From a virus: 20,458 nt of DNA. The stretch covers positions 1-20,458 of the IMG/VR virus record IMGVR_UViG_3300042866_000051; one strand, written 5' to 3'. The stretch's first letter is position 1. Each line of letters starts with the position of its first letter. Shown piece after piece: positions 1,228-20,458 of this stretch. A program made the position numbers and the translations under genes. Below the pieces are notes generated by a model. It was not told the DNA's origin. It saw nothing but the letters and a program-made list of their open reading frames with translations, and ran no database searches.

Positions 1228-3672
1228 TTAGGCGGGCATGTACTTCCGGGCTTCTACTTCCGGAGCCTGCCTCTCACGACCGGTACGCGCTTTGCGAATC
1301 CGATCCATCATTGCATAAAGTTGTTTTGCGCCCGCATCGGTCGAGCCGTTACCAAGGTGGGACACCACATCTGCCGGAATCACGAATTCGCCGTCTGCAA
1401 GTCTAGCTTCTTGGTGCCCGCTAATGTTGGCCTTGATGTCATCAGACATACCGTCGCCTTGACCGTTGACGAGCTTACCGCCAACTGCGTACTGCTGCAG
1501 GGAGCCAAGACCGCCTTGAGCGTAGCCCGGGACGTAGCCGCCAGCAGCAAAGTCAACAGCTTCCGGTATTGTTACTGAGTAGTCCGGTTCATACCCTTCT
1601 TCGGACTCCACTGGGTTCTTCAAATCGCGCAGTGTATAACTACGTCCCGAGTTCCACGGAATAGCCGAACCGCCCCCAGCAGGTGCAGAAGTTGTCGGCG
1701 GAGGCTGAACCGGCTGATCAGGCACTTCCGTAATGGTGTAGGTAGCTTCTTTCTCTTTTTCCTTCGGTGGCTCTTTCTTGAAGAAATACTTGTACGCTTC
1801 ATAAAGAAGTGCGGTTTTAGGATCAAGTTTTGCTAGTTGCTCAATCCAATTTGTACCAGCTTCTGATGCTTTACTAGCCGCTTCTTCATCGCCTTCTTTC
1901 TCAGCTTTCTGCTGCGCTTCAAAGTTCTTCAGGATCTCGTCAACAATAGACTTGCTCGCATCAGCCACTTCCTGAGTGGTCTGCGGATTGATGAAACCCA
2001 AATCGATAAAGTCATAACCAACCGGATCTTCTCTAACAGAAACAAATCCCCTAGTAGACGGCAGGGACGATCCAATTGGAGGAGCTACGCTAGCCGGGGC
2101 ACCCGAGTAGTCAGAAGCAAGAGATTCCTTGTCAAACACCTCAATTGACGTTTCAGTATCTTGATCCGGGGGCGGTTTCTTCTTCGGTAGCCCAGTGCCC
2201 GGCACGACGCTGGCCGGAGCACCTGCATAATCAGGAGCAATCGTTTCCGGATCAAACACTTCAATAGAAGTTTCGGTTTCTGGTTCCGTTTCTTCCACTT
2301 TAGTGTCGGTTTCAGTGCCCGGAACAAAAAATTCTGGTGGTGTACCAAACAGGTCACCTAGATCCCCCGGAGTTGCTCCCGGAGCCACTGAACTAGGTGG
2401 CGTTAAATCTTCCCTCGGCTTAGGAGGAGCCGGAGGAACCGGTGGCTGTATGAAATCAATCGGAGTACCGGTCACACCAGTAGCAAACGGATCATTGCCC
2501 GGAGGAGTTACAGTTCCACCAGATCCGGGGCCGCCGCCACCGCCAGTATCTCCACCAGTATCCGTACCCGTTCCCGGACCATAAGGCTGATACGGTTTCT
2601 TTAGTCGCGCTCGCAATGCATCCAAGTACGCCTGCAGGGCGGAAGTATCCCGAGGCGCGGTGTTAGGGGGGACTAGCAGGCTTTCGTAGTACTTCCCAAG
2701 CCCGGCTCGGTCCTGCGTGAAAGAGGGCTGATAGGTAGTAACGGTTTGGGGGAGCACAGCGCCCGGAGACACCATAACCTCGCCACCGTCAGCAAATCTC
2801 TCTTCCCCAAAGATCATGCCGCCACCGGCATACCCCGGATACTTGTCCGTGAAGTAACCCGGTTTAAACAGCCACTCACCGTAGCCCTTGCCGTAGTTCG
2901 GGTTGTAATCGCCCGGGATGTAGTAGCGAGGCTTCGACATCTGCCCGCCCTTCATATCTTCTTCGTCAACGGTCGGAGTCAGAGCCGCTTGGATGCCAAG
3001 CGAGGTAGCGTACTTAGACGCCATCTTGCCGAACGGACTCGTGTAACCGCCCTCCAATCCGGTCGTAAACGCCTTGCGGCCCTGCTCAGTGGCTAGGCCC
3101 TTGATACCCTCGAAGATCCCCGACTTGCTCGGCTGGGGTGTGACTGGAGATACGGCAGGAAGCGGAGTGGTAGTCTGCGGTAGCCTGACGCCAAAAGTCT
3201 GTTTATCGAGATCGGGCTTGTCCAGATCGTAGCCCATCAACTCGTCTTCTTTCAGACCCAACTGCTGTGACAAAGTCTTGGGAGGAGCCATCCGCACTGC
3301 AGCAGCCCGACGTAAACCTTCGCTGATGTTCGATCCGCTATAGGCGCTGAACCCGGCATTTAAACCTTTCTTAAAACTGCCCTCGATAAGGCCCGTCGCG
3401 CCACCGACAATCGCACTTGTAGCAGTCGAGCCAAGGCCCGGGAACACCCGATTAAGGGTAAATCCTGCGATGGCAGGAAGGATGGACTTCAAGAACCCGG
3501 CTTCCGGCAGACCCGTGTGGGGATTAAGCGTAAGAGAGCCGCCCGCAGCTTGGGCAATTGACTGCAAACCCCGAACTTCCCCGGGGGTCATGTGAACAAG
3601 AACTTTATCTTCCCCCCGCCCCTGAGAAGCGAGAAGGCCAGCTAGCCCGGCCATGTTAGGGTTTCGATTCAT
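1228..3672 (-). CDS. Large Pro/Gly-rich structural protein, candidate internal virion protein
   Basis: An 814-residue protein. The ATG at 3672 has a GAGGGAAG purine tract directly upstream. Residues 1-120 contain a conserved-looking start (VHMTPGEVRGLQSIAQ) followed by hydrophobic, Gly-rich segments that could contact membranes. Residues ~345-520 are low complexity: a Gly/Thr/Asp stretch, then Pro-rich acidic sequence with a 40-residue tandem duplication (ETSIEVFD...DY.GAPASV). Residues ~560-640 are charged and helical. The C-terminal ~80 residues form a conserved-looking module (ARLADGEFVIPADVVSHLGN, then a helix ending in MMDRIRKARTG), which I recognise as recurrent in aquatic phage structural proteins. 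Its position downstream of the tail-stabilisation gene and its composition favour an internal or ejected virion protein; a minor tail protein is the alternative. Confidence 0.75.
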   Translation of the reverse strand: MNRNPNMAGLAGLLASQGRGEDKVLVHMTPGEVRGLQSIAQAAGGSLTLNPHTGLPEAGFLKSILPAIAGFTLNRVFPGLGSTATSAIVGGATGLIEGSFKKGLNAGFSAYSGSNISEGLRRAAAVRMAPPKTLSQQLGLKEDELMGYDLDKPDLDKQTFGVRLPQTTTPLPAVSPVTPQPSKSGIFEGIKGLATEQGRKAFTTGLEGGYTSPFGKMASKYATSLGIQAALTPTVDEEDMKGGQMSKPRYYIPGDYNPNYGKGYGEWLFKPGYFTDKYPGYAGGGMIFGEERFADGGEVMVSPGAVLPQTVTTYQPSFTQDRAGLGKYYESLLVPPNTAPRDTSALQAYLDALRARLKKPYQPYGPGTGTDTGGDTGGGGGPGSGGTVTPPGNDPFATGVTGTPIDFIQPPVPPAPPKPREDLTPPSSVAPGATPGDLGDLFGTPPEFFVPGTETDTKVEETEPETETSIEVFDPETIAPDYAGAPASVVPGTGLPKKKPPPDQDTETSIEVFDKESLASDYSGAPASVAPPIGSSLPSTRGFVSVREDPVGYDFIDLGFINPQTTQEVADASKSIVDEILKNFEAQQKAEKEGDEEAASKASEAGTNWIEQLAKLDPKTALLYEAYKYFFKKEPPKEKEKEATYTITEVPDQPVQPPPTTSAPAGGGSAIPWNSGRSYTLRDLKNPVESEEGYEPDYSVTIPEAVDFAAGGYVPGYAQGGLGSLQQYAVGGKLVNGQGDGMSDDIKANISGHQEARLADGEFVIPADVVSHLGNGSTDAGAKQLYAMMDRIRKARTGRERQAPEVEARKYMPA
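2088..2285 (-). repeat. Tandem 120-bp (40-residue) duplication inside the 814-residue protein
   Basis: Two copies of a segment encoding ETSIEVFD(P/K)E(T/S)(I/L)A(P/S)DY(A/S)GAPASV are spaced 120 bases apart: the strings gtcaaacacc at 2131 and atcaaacact at 2251 mark equivalent points. A weaker related PSSVAPGATPG stretch lies upstream in the protein. Several synonymous changes separate the copies, so the duplication is not recent. It sits in a proline-rich linker. Confidence 0.7.
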
Positions 3673-16487: not shown

Positions 16488-17122
16488 GTCACAGGAATCC
16501 TAACTTGTCCAGACCGGTACGCATCCTGACGATCCAAGCCGTCACCGAGGCGCTTCAACTGGCCGAGGGCTTCTTGGTACTTCTGCTCGTAGTAGGTCAT
16601 CATGTCCTGCTCACCCTTCAAGTAGGTGTACGCCTCGCGCAACGACCCGTAGAGCAAAACAGAATCAAAGTTATTACCGAGCCAAGAAGTCCCCGCCGTC
16701 ACGATGGATACCGGGTAATAATAGTAGTGCAGTTCCGCAGTATAGTTTGCGTTTGGGGTCGGCCCCAGCAACATCGTCGTAGCGTCGAAGATAGCGTAGT
16801 ACTTAGGCTTACCTGAAGTCGCCGGGAACGGGTACGAGGCTCGGATGAAGTTCACATCCTTATTGAGCATGTACTCGTATTCGCCCGTCGTACCGTCAAT
16901 TACCGCTATCGAAAACGTCGAGAGCCAGTCAGACGGCAGGGACATATATTGATTGCCGTTGCTCATCGAACCGGTGACGTTTTTACGAAGTGCCGGAAGC
17001 TGGACCGTGTTGTAAATGCGCTGCTCAGCAACCTCCACAAAAGTAGGAATATTCGCCACGAAGGAAGTCTCCGTGGACTGACAGTAGTCCTGAATCAGTT
17101 GTGTAAGCTCTGAGTAGTTCAT
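16484..17122 (-). CDS. Head-tail adaptor (neck) protein, SU10-type
   Basis: A 212-residue protein; ATG at 17122 overlaps the preceding stop by one base (TAATG). The start (MNYSELTQLIQDYCQSTETS, then FVANIPTFVEVAEQRIYNTV) is characteristic of the adaptor family named for podovirus SU10, whose members sit as a dodecameric ring beneath the portal. The middle contains strands with LPSDWLSTFSIAV and PKYYAIFDATTMLLGPTPN, and AELHYYYYPVSI. The C-terminal helices (LLYGSLREAYTYLKGEQDMM, YYEQKYQEALGQLKRL) match the helical bundle that contacts the portal. It would bind the portal and provide the platform for the tail proteins. A second, different connector-like gene lies at 17885-18610. Confidence 0.85.
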   Translation of the reverse strand: MNYSELTQLIQDYCQSTETSFVANIPTFVEVAEQRIYNTVQLPALRKNVTGSMSNGNQYMSLPSDWLSTFSIAVIDGTTGEYEYMLNKDVNFIRASYPFPATSGKPKYYAIFDATTMLLGPTPNANYTAELHYYYYPVSIVTAGTSWLGNNFDSVLLYGSLREAYTYLKGEQDMMTYYEQKYQEALGQLKRLGDGLDRQDAYRSGQVRIPVT

Positions 17123-17316
17123 TAGCTCCAGCCTGCGCGAACCTTACCGTTGTTCTGCAAATTGATCTGCGAGACGAACTTCTTACCCTTGGTGGCAGCG
17201 CCAGCACCCTTCATATCCATGTGGGTGACGCCCTTGTTGACATCCTTTTCAGGATAGCCATTCTCACCAGTCGAGTCAGTGTTCGGCCTGATCTTGCCGG
17301 GGTTTAGTTCTTTCAT
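17122..17316 (-). CDS. Small basic Gly/Asn-rich phage protein
   Basis: A 64-residue protein; ATG at 17316, 5 bases after the preceding stop, with a GAAG purine tract about 8 bases upstream. It is polar throughout with no predicted membrane helix: MKELNPGKIRPNTDSTGENG, then THMDMKGAGAATKGKKFVSQ and INLQNNGKVRAGWS. The GAGAATKGKKF stretch is one I associate with small proteins in aquatic phages; function unknown. Its position next to the adaptor suggests an assembly or packaged basic protein. Confidence 0.7.
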   Translation of the reverse strand: MKELNPGKIRPNTDSTGENGYPEKDVNKGVTHMDMKGAGAATKGKKFVSQINLQNNGKVRAGWS

Positions 17317-17321
17317 GGCAG

Positions 17322-17498
17322 TTACTTCGGGCCAGAAGACTTACGGACCGGGCTGCGCTGGTTCATCACCTTCGCCATGTTCCGACCGTACTTCTTCATC
17401 TCGCTGTTGGTCTTGCCACCAGCACGAAAGCCTTTAGCGTTCTTGCCGTGAGCCTTGCTCGCCGGAAGTTTGGCGTGTTCCTTCAAAGTCATAGCCAT
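17322..17498 (-). CDS. Very small basic protein (58 residues)
   Basis: A short gene supported by an ATG at 17498 with AGGAG spaced 6 bases, and by tight packing: 9 bases from the preceding stop and 5 bases before the next start, filling what would otherwise be a 190-base gap. The product is strongly basic, rich in Lys, Arg, Gly and Asn: MAMTLKEHAKLPASKAHGKN, AKGFRAGGKTNSEMKKYGRN and MAKVMNQRSPVRKSSGPK. An ATG at 17492 is an alternative start. It resembles in composition the small basic proteins at 19026-20251. A nucleic-acid-binding or packaged role is plausible but unproven. Confidence 0.7.
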   Translation of the reverse strand: MAMTLKEHAKLPASKAHGKNAKGFRAGGKTNSEMKKYGRNMAKVMNQRSPVRKSSGPK

Positions 17499-17509: not shown

Positions 17510-17885
17510 AGGTCGTAACGACCGTTACCGTTCCTACTTCACCAGCCGGGGCTAGTGTGTTTGGAGTTAGTTCCGCATCGAAAGATCTTGATCCGCCGAC
17601 CGGGTTCCAACCCCATTGTATCTGACGGCTACCGTTTGCGCCGTCATTGCCCACAGCAAAGTAACTCGTATCCGGTCTCGGATTCCGCAAAGCCTGCGGA
17701 TCGTCCACGGGATACAAACCAAGCGATAACTGCGGTTGATCTGGCTCCCAACACTCCGGACATACCAAGATGTTGACGTTCTTGGTTTTGATTACGAGAG
17801 ACTTCAACTGCCGAAGCTTGTATTGAAAGCCACAGCGGTCGCACATCGCAATCGCGTTTTTGCCACTTGCAAACCTGTTTGGCAT
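17508..17885 (-). CDS. Zinc-ribbon phage protein, function unknown
   Basis: A 125-residue protein; ATG at 17885 overlaps the preceding stop by one base (TAATG). Two CxxC knuckles, C15/C18 (MCDRCGFQYKLRQL) and C42/C45 (LVCPECWEPDQPQL), form a treble-clef or zinc-ribbon of normal spacing. The segment from the start to the YPVDDPQALRNPRPD stretch (~residue 71) is a conserved unit I recognise in many aquatic phages. The C-terminal ~50 residues (GWNPVGGSRSFDAELTPN ... VGTVTVVTT) are beta-rich and more variable. It lies between the two connector-type genes, pointing to a structural or assembly role rather than regulation, though DNA contact at the portal cannot be excluded. Confidence 0.8.
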   Translation of the reverse strand: MPNRFASGKNAIAMCDRCGFQYKLRQLKSLVIKTKNVNILVCPECWEPDQPQLSLGLYPVDDPQALRNPRPDTSYFAVGNDGANGSRQIQWGWNPVGGSRSFDAELTPNTLAPAGEVGTVTVVTT

Positions 17886-18610
17886 TAGTAGCCACCCAAG
17901 AAGCTCTCACGTGGGACGAATCGCACCGCCGCCTTTTCGCGGTCTTCACCTGCCGCAAGATCCCAAGCCTCGTCGTACTGGGCCTTCAAAATGGCCGTAC
18001 GCCCTTCTGCTCCGGGGATCTTCATCGACAGCATATAAGCCAAGCCTGCAACCATACAGGGCAGGAAACGGAACGGGATATCTTGCCCATTCACGCCTGT
18101 ACCGGGGTCAAACATCCGCCGCAACCGCGTGTAGTACAACGTCCACGTGGTCGAATTGTCAGGCTTCGGCCAAACCGTAAATTGCGGGTAAACCACCACA
18201 TCGTCGGCACCCGTCGCGCCAGTACGTCGGTTGATCCAAATCTGAATCGGGCGACCCGTCGCGTTCTTATTCGGGATGGAGACGTAGGTGCTGGACGAGA
18301 TACGGCTGATGTTGATGTCCTGCTGGTTCGTGCCAGAGCCAGTCCTAATAACATGATCTAAAAGATCGACCGTATCCACCGGCAGGTCGTAGGTACCGAC
18401 GTTATAAGTCAGCACATGGGTGCCTTGCTCCAATGTCCAAAGGTTGATGCCCCGGTTTGACCAGTCCATCAGGAGCAGGGCAAGACTACGCTTCGACGTA
18501 CGGAAGTCATAACCCGTACGCAGTTCAGCACCGCAACGCTCGTAAGCCTCTTCGATAATCGTGTTGAGGTCGAGGTTGAAGTCTGTAGTAGCTGTAGTCT
18601 TGTCTACCAT
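17885..18610 (-). CDS. Head-tail connector / tail-tubular-like protein
   Basis: A 241-residue protein; ATG at 18610 overlaps the preceding stop by one base (TAATG). Residues 12-75 are helical and conserved-looking (FNLDLNTIIEEAYERCGAEL, RTSKRSLALLLMDWSNRGIN, LWTLEQGTHVL), followed by beta-rich DLPVDTVDLLDHVIRTGSG, WINRRTGATG and VYPQFTVWPKPDN, and C-terminal helices (FLPCMVAGLAYMLSMKIPG, LKAQYDEAWDLAAGEDREKA). Helix-beta-helix architecture is that of gatekeeper or adaptor proteins such as T7 gp11 and P22 gp4. In combination with the SU10-type adaptor it suggests successive rings in the neck. The exact equivalence needs a structure comparison. Confidence 0.78.
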   Translation of the reverse strand: MVDKTTATTDFNLDLNTIIEEAYERCGAELRTGYDFRTSKRSLALLLMDWSNRGINLWTLEQGTHVLTYNVGTYDLPVDTVDLLDHVIRTGSGTNQQDINISRISSSTYVSIPNKNATGRPIQIWINRRTGATGADDVVVYPQFTVWPKPDNSTTWTLYYTRLRRMFDPGTGVNGQDIPFRFLPCMVAGLAYMLSMKIPGAEGRTAILKAQYDEAWDLAAGEDREKAAVRFVPRESFLGGY

Positions 18611-19023
18611 TACTTCCTCGCTGTCACTACGTCGTCACCCTTGGTGACGGTGACATGATCGCCTTCCACATCGACTCGCATCGGCATTTCTTTCCGATCC
18701 AGTTTATCGAGTTTAGCGATAAGTTCCTTGATGACCGCAAACTCAGGCTTCTCTTCCTTCTCGTTTGCACCGGCAATACCGTTGAGCATAGAGATCAAGG
18801 CGGTAAGTGAAGCACCGAGCAATCCCATCACAGCAGCAATCTTCTCAGAATCCAGCACCAAACTGGATGCCACGCCGATAACAACAATGATCGTGATGTA
18901 CTTCAGGCCGTCCTTGCCGATGGCTTTGCCAGCGACTTCTTTAGCAGACGACTTGGCCTCAAGCCGATTTAACTCGGCCTGAACCTGTGCCTTGAACATC
19001 TCGATGTCGGTTGTCTCAGCCAC
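18610..19023 (-). CDS. Two-TM membrane protein, possible holin-like or virion membrane protein
   Basis: A 137-residue protein. I accept GTG at 19023: it lies 2 bases after the preceding stop and has AAGG about 9 bases upstream; the next in-frame ATG is residue 9. Residues 1-38 are a charged helix (MFKAQVQAELNRLEAKS). Two hydrophobic segments follow (~41-57, KYITIIVVIGVASSLVL; ~62-85, IAAVMGLLGASLTALISMLNG). The C-terminal half is charged, with a helix (VIKELIAKLDKLDRKEM) and a short beta end (VDVEGDHVTVTKGDD). Topology is compatible with a class II holin or antiholin, but it is far from the endolysin, where a separate holin exists. A membrane-associated assembly role is equally possible. Confidence 0.72.
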   Translation of the reverse strand: MAETTDIEMFKAQVQAELNRLEAKSSAKEVAGKAIGKDGLKYITIIVVIGVASSLVLDSEKIAAVMGLLGASLTALISMLNGIAGANEKEEKPEFAVIKELIAKLDKLDRKEMPMRVDVEGDHVTVTKGDDVVTARK

Positions 19024-19025
19024 GC

Positions 19026-19271
19026 TTACTTACCTTTTTGGCGATACGCACGGGTTTTCTGCGAGATGCCTTTGGGCTGGGCGACGAACTGTTTGCCTTG
19101 GGCTTTGCCTTTTCGCTTGGCGGCAGTGGTTCGGGCGTACTCAGCAGGGCTGAGAGCTTTAATCGCAGCCTCTGGTAGATATCTTTCACCCGTATCAGAA
19201 GATCGTTTACCACTCTTAGTCCTCCATTTCTGGGCAGTCCATGCCTTCAAGGATTGCTGCGGCGCTTTCAA
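19026..19271 (-). CDS. Small basic phage protein (DUF5872-like)
   Basis: An 81-residue, strongly basic protein. The pattern SLKAWTAQKWRTKSGKRSSD, GERYLPEAAIKALSPAEYAR and GKAQGKQFVAQPKGI is one I recognise from a family of small phage and cellular proteins (DUF5872-like), function unknown. No ATG exists in frame; the best start is TTG at 19271, overlapping the preceding stop as TTGA, with a G-rich tract (GGCGGGGGG) upstream. A shorter start at residue 8 (also TTG) is possible. Belongs to a run of tiny basic genes. Confidence 0.72.
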   Translation of the reverse strand: MKAPQQSLKAWTAQKWRTKSGKRSSDTGERYLPEAAIKALSPAEYARTTAAKRKGKAQGKQFVAQPKGISQKTRAYRQKGK

Positions 19272-19567
19272 TCGCGGTACCCCCCGCCACGCCGTTTGTA
19301 CTCTTTAGCCAGTAGCTGTGCCTTCCGCGCTGACCACTGACCTGCCTTGGTGCCTTGGACCGCCCGAGACTTGATGGATTTAAACAAGCTCTCACGCATA
19401 CCGGGCTTGGTGTAGTTACCGGCTGCGTTGACCTTGCTCTTGACCTTACCGCCCTTGGCGTGGCGAATGGGACGACCAGTACCCTCAACAATCTCGTTAT
19501 CCCCACGCCGTTTAGCACGAGGAACTTTGTTGGGGGCAATGACGCCCATGCCACGCGAAGCCATCAT
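19268..19567 (-). CDS. Small basic phage protein
   Basis: A 99-residue, highly basic protein; ATG at 19567 (or the next ATG, 19564) overlaps the preceding stop by one base. A variable start (MGVIAPNKVPRAKRRGD, RPIRHAKGGKVKSK) leads to a conserved-looking C-terminal half (KVNAAGNYTKPGMRESLFKS, then GTKAGQWSARKAQLLAKEYK and RRGGGYRD), which I recall as widespread in marine phage genomes. The C-terminal motif suggests a folded nucleic-acid or capsid-binding module, but the role is unknown. It overlaps the next gene by 4 bases. Confidence 0.76.
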   Translation of the reverse strand: MMASRGMGVIAPNKVPRAKRRGDNEIVEGTGRPIRHAKGGKVKSKVNAAGNYTKPGMRESLFKSIKSRAVQGTKAGQWSARKAQLLAKEYKRRGGGYRD

Positions 19568-19797
19568 TAGACCATCTTCCCGCGAGTCTTACCGCGAACG
19601 GCGCAACCATCAGCACGCTTGGAAGCAGACGAGTGAATCTTTCCGCCGCCAGCTTTTTTGACCGGAGGCTTCTTCTTCACATCGTCGCCATAACCTTTGC
19701 CCGGAGGAATCACGGACTTATCCGGCAACATTGACGGCGGCACCAAATCGTCCGAAGGCGACGGAGGTGGCATCTTGGGCTTCTTTTTGTCGTCCAT
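19567..19797 (-). CDS. Small Lys/Pro-rich basic protein
   Basis: I start this at ATG 19797 (76 residues), which forms the TAATG overlap seen at many junctions here; the GTG at 19803 is a less likely alternative. The first half is Pro/Lys/Asp-rich and probably disordered (MDDKKKPKMPPPSPSDDLVP, PPGKGYGDDVKKKPP). The C-terminal ~25 residues (SSASKRADGCAVRGKTRGKM) resemble the C-terminus of the neighbouring 102-residue protein (FRKAADGIASKGKTKGKMV), suggesting paralogy or a shared binding motif. Function unknown. Confidence 0.74.
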   Translation of the reverse strand: MDDKKKPKMPPPSPSDDLVPPSMLPDKSVIPPGKGYGDDVKKKPPVKKAGGGKIHSSASKRADGCAVRGKTRGKMV

Positions 19798-20105
19798 TAG
19801 CACTTACCGCCGTAAGCCATTTTCACCATCTTGCCTTTGGTCTTGCCCTTGCTGGCGATGCCATCAGCGGCTTTACGGAAGACAGAACCGCCTTCGTTGT
19901 ACTTCTTGACCATCGCACGACCCATCTTGTCAGGGGTACGCTTCTTCATGGCGCGACCAGCCTTATCAGCGATCTTGCCGCCTTTCTTGTACATCGGCTC
20001 TTCCGGAATTGGCTTCAACCCCGGCATACGGCGAGAACTAATACGCTCAGCCATCGGCTCACGTTCAGGACGCATCATACGTCCGCCCATCGCATACTTC
20101 TTCAT
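19797..20105 (-). CDS. Small Lys/Arg/Met-rich basic protein
   Basis: A 102-residue protein; ATG at 20105 overlaps the preceding stop as ATGA. Extremely basic and methionine-rich: MKKYAMGGRMMRPEREPMAE, a central series of K-K-x-G-G and RAMKK segments (YKKGGKIADKAGRAMKKR, DKMGRAMVKKYNEGG), then FRKAADGIASKGKTKGKMVK and MAYGGKC. The KKYNEGGSVFRKAADG region is familiar from small proteins in aquatic phages. A DNA-condensing or scaffolding partner would fit the composition, but nothing in the sequence proves it. Confidence 0.75.
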   Translation of the reverse strand: MKKYAMGGRMMRPEREPMAERISSRRMPGLKPIPEEPMYKKGGKIADKAGRAMKKRTPDKMGRAMVKKYNEGGSVFRKAADGIASKGKTKGKMVKMAYGGKC

Positions 20106-20251
20106 TTGGATTTACCTTTAAATTTACGGCCTTTGTCGGCCTTCATGAACTCTTTCCCGACTTTCGACGGGATACCCAAACGCTTTGCGGCTTTCGGGTC
20201 ATTAGCCACTAGCGCCATTAGACGATGTTGTTTACCCGACTTGCTTGGCAT
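20102..20251 (-). CDS. Very small basic protein (49 residues)
   Basis: ATG at 20251, with the stop at 20102 overlapping the next start as ATGA, the standard junction here. Product: MPSKSGKQHRLMALVANDPK, then AAKRLGIPSKVGKEFMKADK and GRKFKGKSK. The pattern PSKS.KQHRLM...A..P..AK..GIP..VG..F.KADK is one I recognise from small phage-encoded proteins, sometimes called head-associated without proof. It overlaps the end of the preceding membrane-protein gene by 20 bases, more than is usual here. Filling this interval leaves no gap in the region. Confidence 0.75.
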   Translation of the reverse strand: MPSKSGKQHRLMALVANDPKAAKRLGIPSKVGKEFMKADKGRKFKGKSK

Positions 20252-20458
20252 TGTGACTCACCAATCTGTCAATCTTTTGTTCCAGTCGATCAAGCCGGTC
20301 AAGAAGTACTTGTGCATCAGCCCGTACTTCGGCACGGGTTACATGATCACGAGCCACTTCCTCTCGGGTTTTGTTGAGAAGAATCCCCAACCGTTGAAGT
20401 TCGGCAAACTTCTCTTTCACAACAAAACCAAGCACGGCCACGATTCCCGTAAGAACCA
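20232..20458 (-). CDS. Membrane protein, 5' end outside window
   Basis: Seventy-four complete codons are visible to the stop at 20232; the frame continues open to the window edge, so the N-terminus is missing. A GTG at 20441 would cut the hydrophobic segment, so it is probably not the start. The visible sequence begins VLTGIVAVLGFVVKEKF, a probable transmembrane segment, followed by helix FAELQRLGILLNKTREEVAR and a coiled coil (LLDRLDRLEQKIDRLVSHN). This N-in membrane-anchored coiled coil resembles small phage membrane proteins of unknown role; Rz-like spanin is less likely because the gene is far from the lysis pair and lacks the usual partner. Confidence 0.7.
   Translation of the reverse strand, partial: VLTGIVAVLGFVVKEKFAELQRLGILLNKTREEVARDHVTRAEVRADAQVLLDRLDRLEQKIDRLVSHNAKQVG

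Follow-up and report, generated by a model that had tools for sequence, protein, structure and literature searches.

Encapsulins, shells with the HK97 fold, take up unrelated cargo proteins by means of short cargo-loading peptides, which sit at the C-terminus after a flexible glycine-rich linker. For the internal proteins of phage T4, a short targeting peptide (CTS) carried by different small head proteins is described, in the passages available from PMC5694885, to ensure entry into the prohead. Here we describe a locus from a virus record of 20,458 bases, analysed at its full length and called the window hereafter, which carries a phage late region on the - strand. As far as sequence comparison can tell, the locus belongs to a head and packaging block of many aquatic phages in which one C-terminal peptide is conserved as protein on bodies without detectable relation to each other. 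This tag on otherwise unrelated proteins of a widespread family may be an address label for loading into the virus particle.

Gene layout and coding status of the late region

The preliminary description of this DNA had reported five overlapping, strongly basic ORFs of 49–102 residues, and this was borne out, as p49, p102, p78, p99 and p81 all lie on the - strand, carry net charges of +10 to +20 and overlap their neighbours by 1–7 bases. The five genes are not of one kind: p102 and p78 are tagged, whereas p49, p99 and p81 represent three other families. We call a protein class A if it ends exactly with the tag and class B if the tag is followed by a short stretch mostly ending in GGxC. Read along the - strand, the order is the 3' end of p69, p49, p102, p78, p99, p81, p137, a portal adaptor, a zinc-ribbon-like gene, p58 and p64, with more virion and tail-fibre genes downstream of p64. 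The main features are:

20232..20441, - strand: p69, 3' part of a small coiled-coil gene; weak matches to phrog_12220 and phrog_462
20102..20251, - strand: p49, 49 aa, net charge +12, phrog_16759
19797..20105, - strand: p102, 102 aa, net charge +20, class B tagged
19824..19871, - strand: tag of p102, AADGIASKGKTKGKMV, then KMAYGGKC
19567..19803, - strand: p78, 78 aa (GTG start) or 76 aa (ATG start), net charge +10, class A tagged, proline-rich body
19570..19617, - strand: tag of p78, RADGCAVRGKTRGKMV, exact C-terminus
19268..19567, - strand: p99, 99 aa, net charge +19, phrog_17747
19026..19271, - strand: p81, 81 aa, TTG start, net charge +17, phrog_14910
18610..19023, - strand: p137, acidic, with a hydrophobic segment; optional among relatives and varying in place
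17885..18610, - strand: portal adaptor, phrog_12985; 43% to a DSL-LC04 gene annotated as Pam1 adaptor protein
17322..17498, - strand: p58, 58 aa, net charge +13, untagged; kept downstream of the adaptor in relatives
17122..17316, - strand: p64, containing KGAGAATKGKKF at 17176–17211

p69 is probably a holin-like membrane protein that is cut off by the window edge, its version in contig L001 having 99 aa. The further basic protein that had been noted at 17322–17498 is p58, which is indeed basic but lacks the tag. Median dN/dS values against relatives were low for p49 (0.02), p81 (0.07) and p99 (0.19), so these three genes are coding and under purifying selection; the adaptor had a median of 0.05. 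For p102 and p78 the medians were 0.43 and 0.64, the proteins used for comparison often having non-orthologous bodies. A Shine-Dalgarno-like sequence was present upstream of two of the ten genes tested, and a single-sequence search of the PDB with the adaptor returned only chance matches. Elsewhere in the window, an 814-aa protein without a PHROG match (1228–3672, - strand) contains repeated short GG motifs (YAGGG-, YAQGG- and YAVGG-like) resembling those that precede the tags.

The C-terminal tag and its bodies

Proteins of the p102 and p78 type have a C-terminal peptide of about 16 residues in common (consensus RADG[IC]AxRGKT[KR]G[KR]MV) and little else. A C-terminal motif shared by the 76- and 102-residue proteins had been noticed before, and it is real, with 11 of 16 positions identical between RADGCAVRGKTRGKMV and AADGIASKGKTKGKMV, but the position before ADG holds R or A where K or A had been given. 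It forms the exact C-terminus of p78 only, being subterminal in p102 because KMAYGGKC comes after it. The paralogy suggested for the two proteins is too simple a description, since they have the tag in common but not the bodies: among the matches listed, none of 59 same-contig pairs of this type had bodies similar at 1e-3, and the last 16 residues of these pairs showed a mean identity of 0.77. A recent duplication of p102 and p78 is likewise unsupported, given that same-contig class A bodies are unrelated. In contigs selected by their adaptor, p78-like genes occur in one to several copies of very different lengths.

The interval bounded by the holin-like gene and p99, a short way upstream of the portal adaptor, consists almost entirely of tagged genes. 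To avoid selection on the tag itself, every ORF between p69 and p99 was listed for 24 distinct anchored intervals, including the near-identical pairs L003/L045, L030/L031 and L040/L047. They contain 36 class A, 23 class B and 16 p49 ORFs besides seven others; class B is found once per phage in 23 of the 24, and class A zero to three times per interval. Three of the seven others (L036, L044, L054) have the divergent ending RGYGIAQ[KR]GRGRGRFVR, and the remaining four are apparently spurious. Scanning viral contigs with a DNA pattern of the tag core gave at least 120 matches, those listed falling into 80 loci; the one in L127 is a chance P-loop in an unrelated protein. Among the matches listed, the motif is followed by exactly three residues to the end in 87 of 134 in-frame cases, and the same adaptor family is present within the DNA examined in 62 of the 80 loci, a number that includes L072 and two doubly numbered contigs (L102 = L063, L153 = L026).

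In a profile of 160 distinct class A proteins among the matches listed, R(-16), A/G(-15), I/C(-12), A(-11), K/R(-9), K/R(-3), M/F(-2) and V(-1) each carry 2.3–4.1 bits, compared with a mean of 0.5 bits for the body background at -70 to -45; the D, G, K and T positions had served for selection, and the bits are quoted for unselected positions. Net charge was positive in all 160 class A and all 83 class B proteins among the matches listed. Synonymous codons vary freely inside the tag, with four Gly codons at both -13 and -4 and four Thr codons at -6, and it is therefore the protein that is conserved.

Known domains were also seen as bodies. In L126, L147, L151 and L154 a DUF6321-like body (..SRINKSLRAWNC) is joined directly to the tag, so a known small domain serves as tagged body, and EF-hand or dockerin-like calcium-binding loops were seen in the tagged bodies of L230, L243 and L255 as well as in freshwater class A proteins. 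The Pfam matches of 140 tagged proteins include no NTPase family; the freshwater form of the tag fits the spelling GxxxxGKT, but in class A it is C-terminal, and a working Walker A motif was rejected on this position.

A second dialect of the tag has the consensus RGxGAAxRGxxFKGVF. We refer to the two as freshwater-type and marine-type, convenience labels derived from isolates. In the Pelagibacter phage HTVC023P, which has an adaptor with 36% identity to that of the window, gp51 lies about 0.7 kb upstream of the adaptor and ends in SRGGGAAVRGMGFKGVF. The scan for the marine-type pattern yielded at least 120 matches, with 80 loci among those listed. In 84 of the 85 in-frame matches listed, the stop codon comes exactly two residues later, and in the remaining one it comes at once. 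The matches listed amount to 113 proteins by the loose ending or 101 distinct ones by the fuller motif, and all 101 have a positive net charge; 2 of 28 same-contig pairs among them have similar bodies, at a tag identity of 0.71. A p49 domain is joined to a marine-type tag in L233, and an EF-hand-like module of the PDLTGDGKVT type is found with both dialects, which at sequence level are linked through common bodies. A joint alignment of 140 tagged proteins aligns the G-x-A core, partly owing to selection. The element KGAGAATKGKKF of p64 resembles the marine tag core but is internal (35 distinct sequences have it 17–22 residues before their C-terminus), and may be the same binding element within another head-tail protein.

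The tag alone found no match by tblastn in 50,697 phage records, and p102 and one marine-type tagged protein retrieved only weak unrelated matches when used as queries. Of 16 records scanned with the strict pattern, the two without a match are DSL-LC04 and Pag-Yong1; Pag-Yong1 contains a variant tag, RDGCAKRGRTKGRFI, two genes upstream of its adaptor. In CRP-902 no such small genes were seen between capsid and adaptor. When the pattern was tightened by a stop codon, bacterial and archaeal genomes totalling 257 billion bases yielded only 12 matching stretches. One of these, a 5.9-kb contig (L217) from a metagenome-assembled genome assigned to Gammaproteobacteria, has four such matches; it may be a binned phage and a hint at a host. 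No Pfam or PHROG family of the tag came up for the proteins scanned (140 of 261 non-redundant tagged proteins). The papers listed in a literature search for the tag strings deal with unrelated subjects, and none that names the tag was found.

Head gene block and neighbouring families

A search with the adaptor yielded 80 viral contigs, and in those of sufficient length the order p69-p49-p102-p78-p99-p81-adaptor is largely kept, a further sign that these ORFs are more than chance. The head block of a relative, L226, starts with terminase large subunit, portal, a 65-aa gene, a GroES-like gene, an acidic 324-aa protein and two unknown genes, continues with the major capsid protein, decoration-like genes, a DUF6321 gene (1.6e-20), p69 and p49, and ends with one class B and two class A tagged genes, p99, p81, one small gene and the adaptor. 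Its acidic pre-capsid protein (phrog_28737) is a better candidate for a scaffold than the small basic genes, for which such a role had also been suggested. This protein does not carry the tag, and the tag was accordingly discarded as the coat-binding end of a scaffold.

In 14 freshwater-type IMG/VR records (25–66 kb each, 749 kb in total), all 27 strict tags are on the strand of the adaptor, 19 bases to 2.83 kb upstream of it. Among 14 marine-type records (13 from IMG/VR and HTVC023P), 12 have an adaptor of phrog_12985 and 10 a portal of phrog_1216, and the tag lies at most 2.9 kb from a portal or adaptor gene in every one; these distances were computed by hand from coordinates. For the neighbours of marine-type tags, scans of 53 of the 55 downstream proteins (all but the long ones of L229 and L304) and of all 63 upstream ones gave, apart from the adaptor family, mostly portal, terminase, GroES, holin and endolysin genes where a named PHROG was matched.

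The link to the virion comes from p49, which belongs to phrog_16759 (8.1e-17, residues 1–46 of 49) and also matches the N-terminal domain of the virion structural protein families phrog_22033 (2.5e-7) and phrog_25121 (7.1e-6), although it is a stand-alone gene of 49 aa in the window. It matches 91 phage records up to E 1, phiKZ gp165.1 (63%) among them, and the same domain forms the N-terminus of the jumbo-phage proteins GAP32_317 and CBB_322. According to the passages available from PMC5259590, ESI-MS/MS of virions detected CBB_322, with 30 unique peptides that cover 43.57% of it; the virion evidence runs via one domain of this large protein. Among the matches listed, 26 of 344 tagged proteins begin with a p49-like N-terminus, 24 of these 26 being class B. 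PDB sequence searches with p49, p81 and three small P-SCSP2 proteins gave no credible relative. The literature passages retrieved for phiKZ gp165.1 contained only a chance occurrence of the number, and the relevant passages on P-SCSP1u and P-SSP7 no mass-spectrometry statement on these genes.

p99 has a constant SRGMG N-terminus, a variable middle and a conserved C-terminal half, through which it belongs to phrog_17747 (1.2e-25, residues 40–98); its AlphaFold2 model (mean pLDDT 63.5) is confident only for about residues 53–95. p81 belongs to phrog_14910 (1.1e-34, residues 1–78 of 81), and its model is mainly helical (pLDDT 86.8), with nothing below E 6 in a Foldseek search against the PDB. Genes like p99 and p81 both occur, mostly adjacent, in HMO-2011 and in Pelagibacter, Roseobacter and Methylophilales phages. 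In DSL-LC04 the place of the p99-p81 pair is occupied by two adjacent genes (L081:11101-11286 and L081:11288-11548) that match the two halves of DUF5872 (PF19197), one each, below threshold. Searched against Pfam, p99 and p81 showed no match to DUF5872 up to E 1; hhalign against the DSL-LC04 genes gave 85.6% for p99 and 1.3% for p81, by which a relation is supported for p99 and unsupported for p81. Small basic genes resembling split DUF5872, DUF6321 and EF-hand proteins, labelled mostly by eye, co-occur in P-SCSP2 and several Pelagibacter phages.

Possible role of the tag

We give about an even chance to the reading that the locus is a cassette coding for small basic proteins associated with the head, their C-terminal peptide being constant and their bodies replaceable, and that the tag is a sorting signal for virion loading. 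A conserved partner, such as the portal, adaptor, scaffold or a capsid protein, would bind the tag during head assembly and so bring the tagged proteins into the virion, where the basic proteins could neutralise packaged DNA and from which they might be carried or ejected into the next host. p49 would be a domain that is made separately or fused ahead of a class B tagged protein, and p99 and p81 a conserved pair of partners. We infer entry into the virion from place, charge and the p49 link. Of the earlier interpretation, which is supported in part, the suggestion of packaged or head-associated basic proteins fits both the position in the head operon and the occurrence of the p49 domain in a protein that mass spectrometry detected in virions.

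Several other explanations were considered. Protamine-like DNA condensation, with the basic charge as the function and the C-terminal peptide as a DNA- or phosphate-binding element instead of an address, would agree with the positive net charge of all tagged proteins counted among the matches listed, with the richness of the tag in K, R and G and with the phosphate-loop spelling of the freshwater dialect. Charge alone, however, leaves the strict C-terminal placement and uncharged positions such as A(-11) unexplained, the marine dialect lacks GKT and no DNA-binding fold was found, which makes this explanation rather unlikely. The constant place in the head block near adaptor or portal would equally suit assembly factors whose tag docks on portal, adaptor or scaffold and which are absent from, or incidental to, the mature virion; the scaffold of phage P22, whose basic C-terminus binds the coat, is a parallel. 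For assembly factors, however, the variable number of class A genes (0–3) and their unrelated bodies would be odd, and a separate acidic pre-capsid gene exists, so we consider such a role improbable.

That the proteins act late in the host cell, in lysis timing or counter-defence, with the peptide as a stability or localisation signal unrelated to particles, might be read from the fast-changing bodies (p102 and p78 having the high dN/dS medians given above) and the adjoining holin-like gene. In all 28 records, however, the tag stays within the head block, and p49 is linked to a virion protein; both speak against this role and leave it quite improbable. Conservation of the tag at the DNA level, be it through use in recombination, through recent duplication or in some other way, would account for same-contig tags being alike on bodies that look exchanged, but it is very unlikely and was rejected because synonymous codons vary at invariant residues.

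Small lysine- and glycine-rich ORFs in the head operons of aquatic phages are currently left as "hypothetical", and a single uniting tag offers a way to find them and predicts virion cargo. Should the tag load cargo, it would also serve as a portable packing peptide for phage heads and indicate where the proteins that these phages deliver to the host are kept.

A wider reading, possible but doubtful, is that abundant phages of lakes and seas use a C-terminal loading signal in two dialects to pack an exchangeable repertoire of small basic proteins into the head, to be delivered with the DNA, the cargo evolving under pressure from the host; this signal would correspond to the T4 capsid targeting sequence, but at the other end of the protein. 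The L226 head block showed no recognisable gene for a separate protease, and its capsid protein corresponds in alignments to the C-terminal portion of profiles in which capsid and protease are fused. According to the passages available, T4 has its CTS at the N-terminus and the prohead protease cleaves it, whereas the tag of the window is C-terminal; as in T4, a constant peptide is found on several otherwise different proteins. With the cargo peptides of encapsulin systems the tag shares the short C-terminal form after a linker on unrelated cargo, by analogy and not by membership; there is no encapsulin here. Without claiming that it belongs to either system, we propose that the tag may work like the T4 targeting sequence and the encapsulin cargo-loading peptides.
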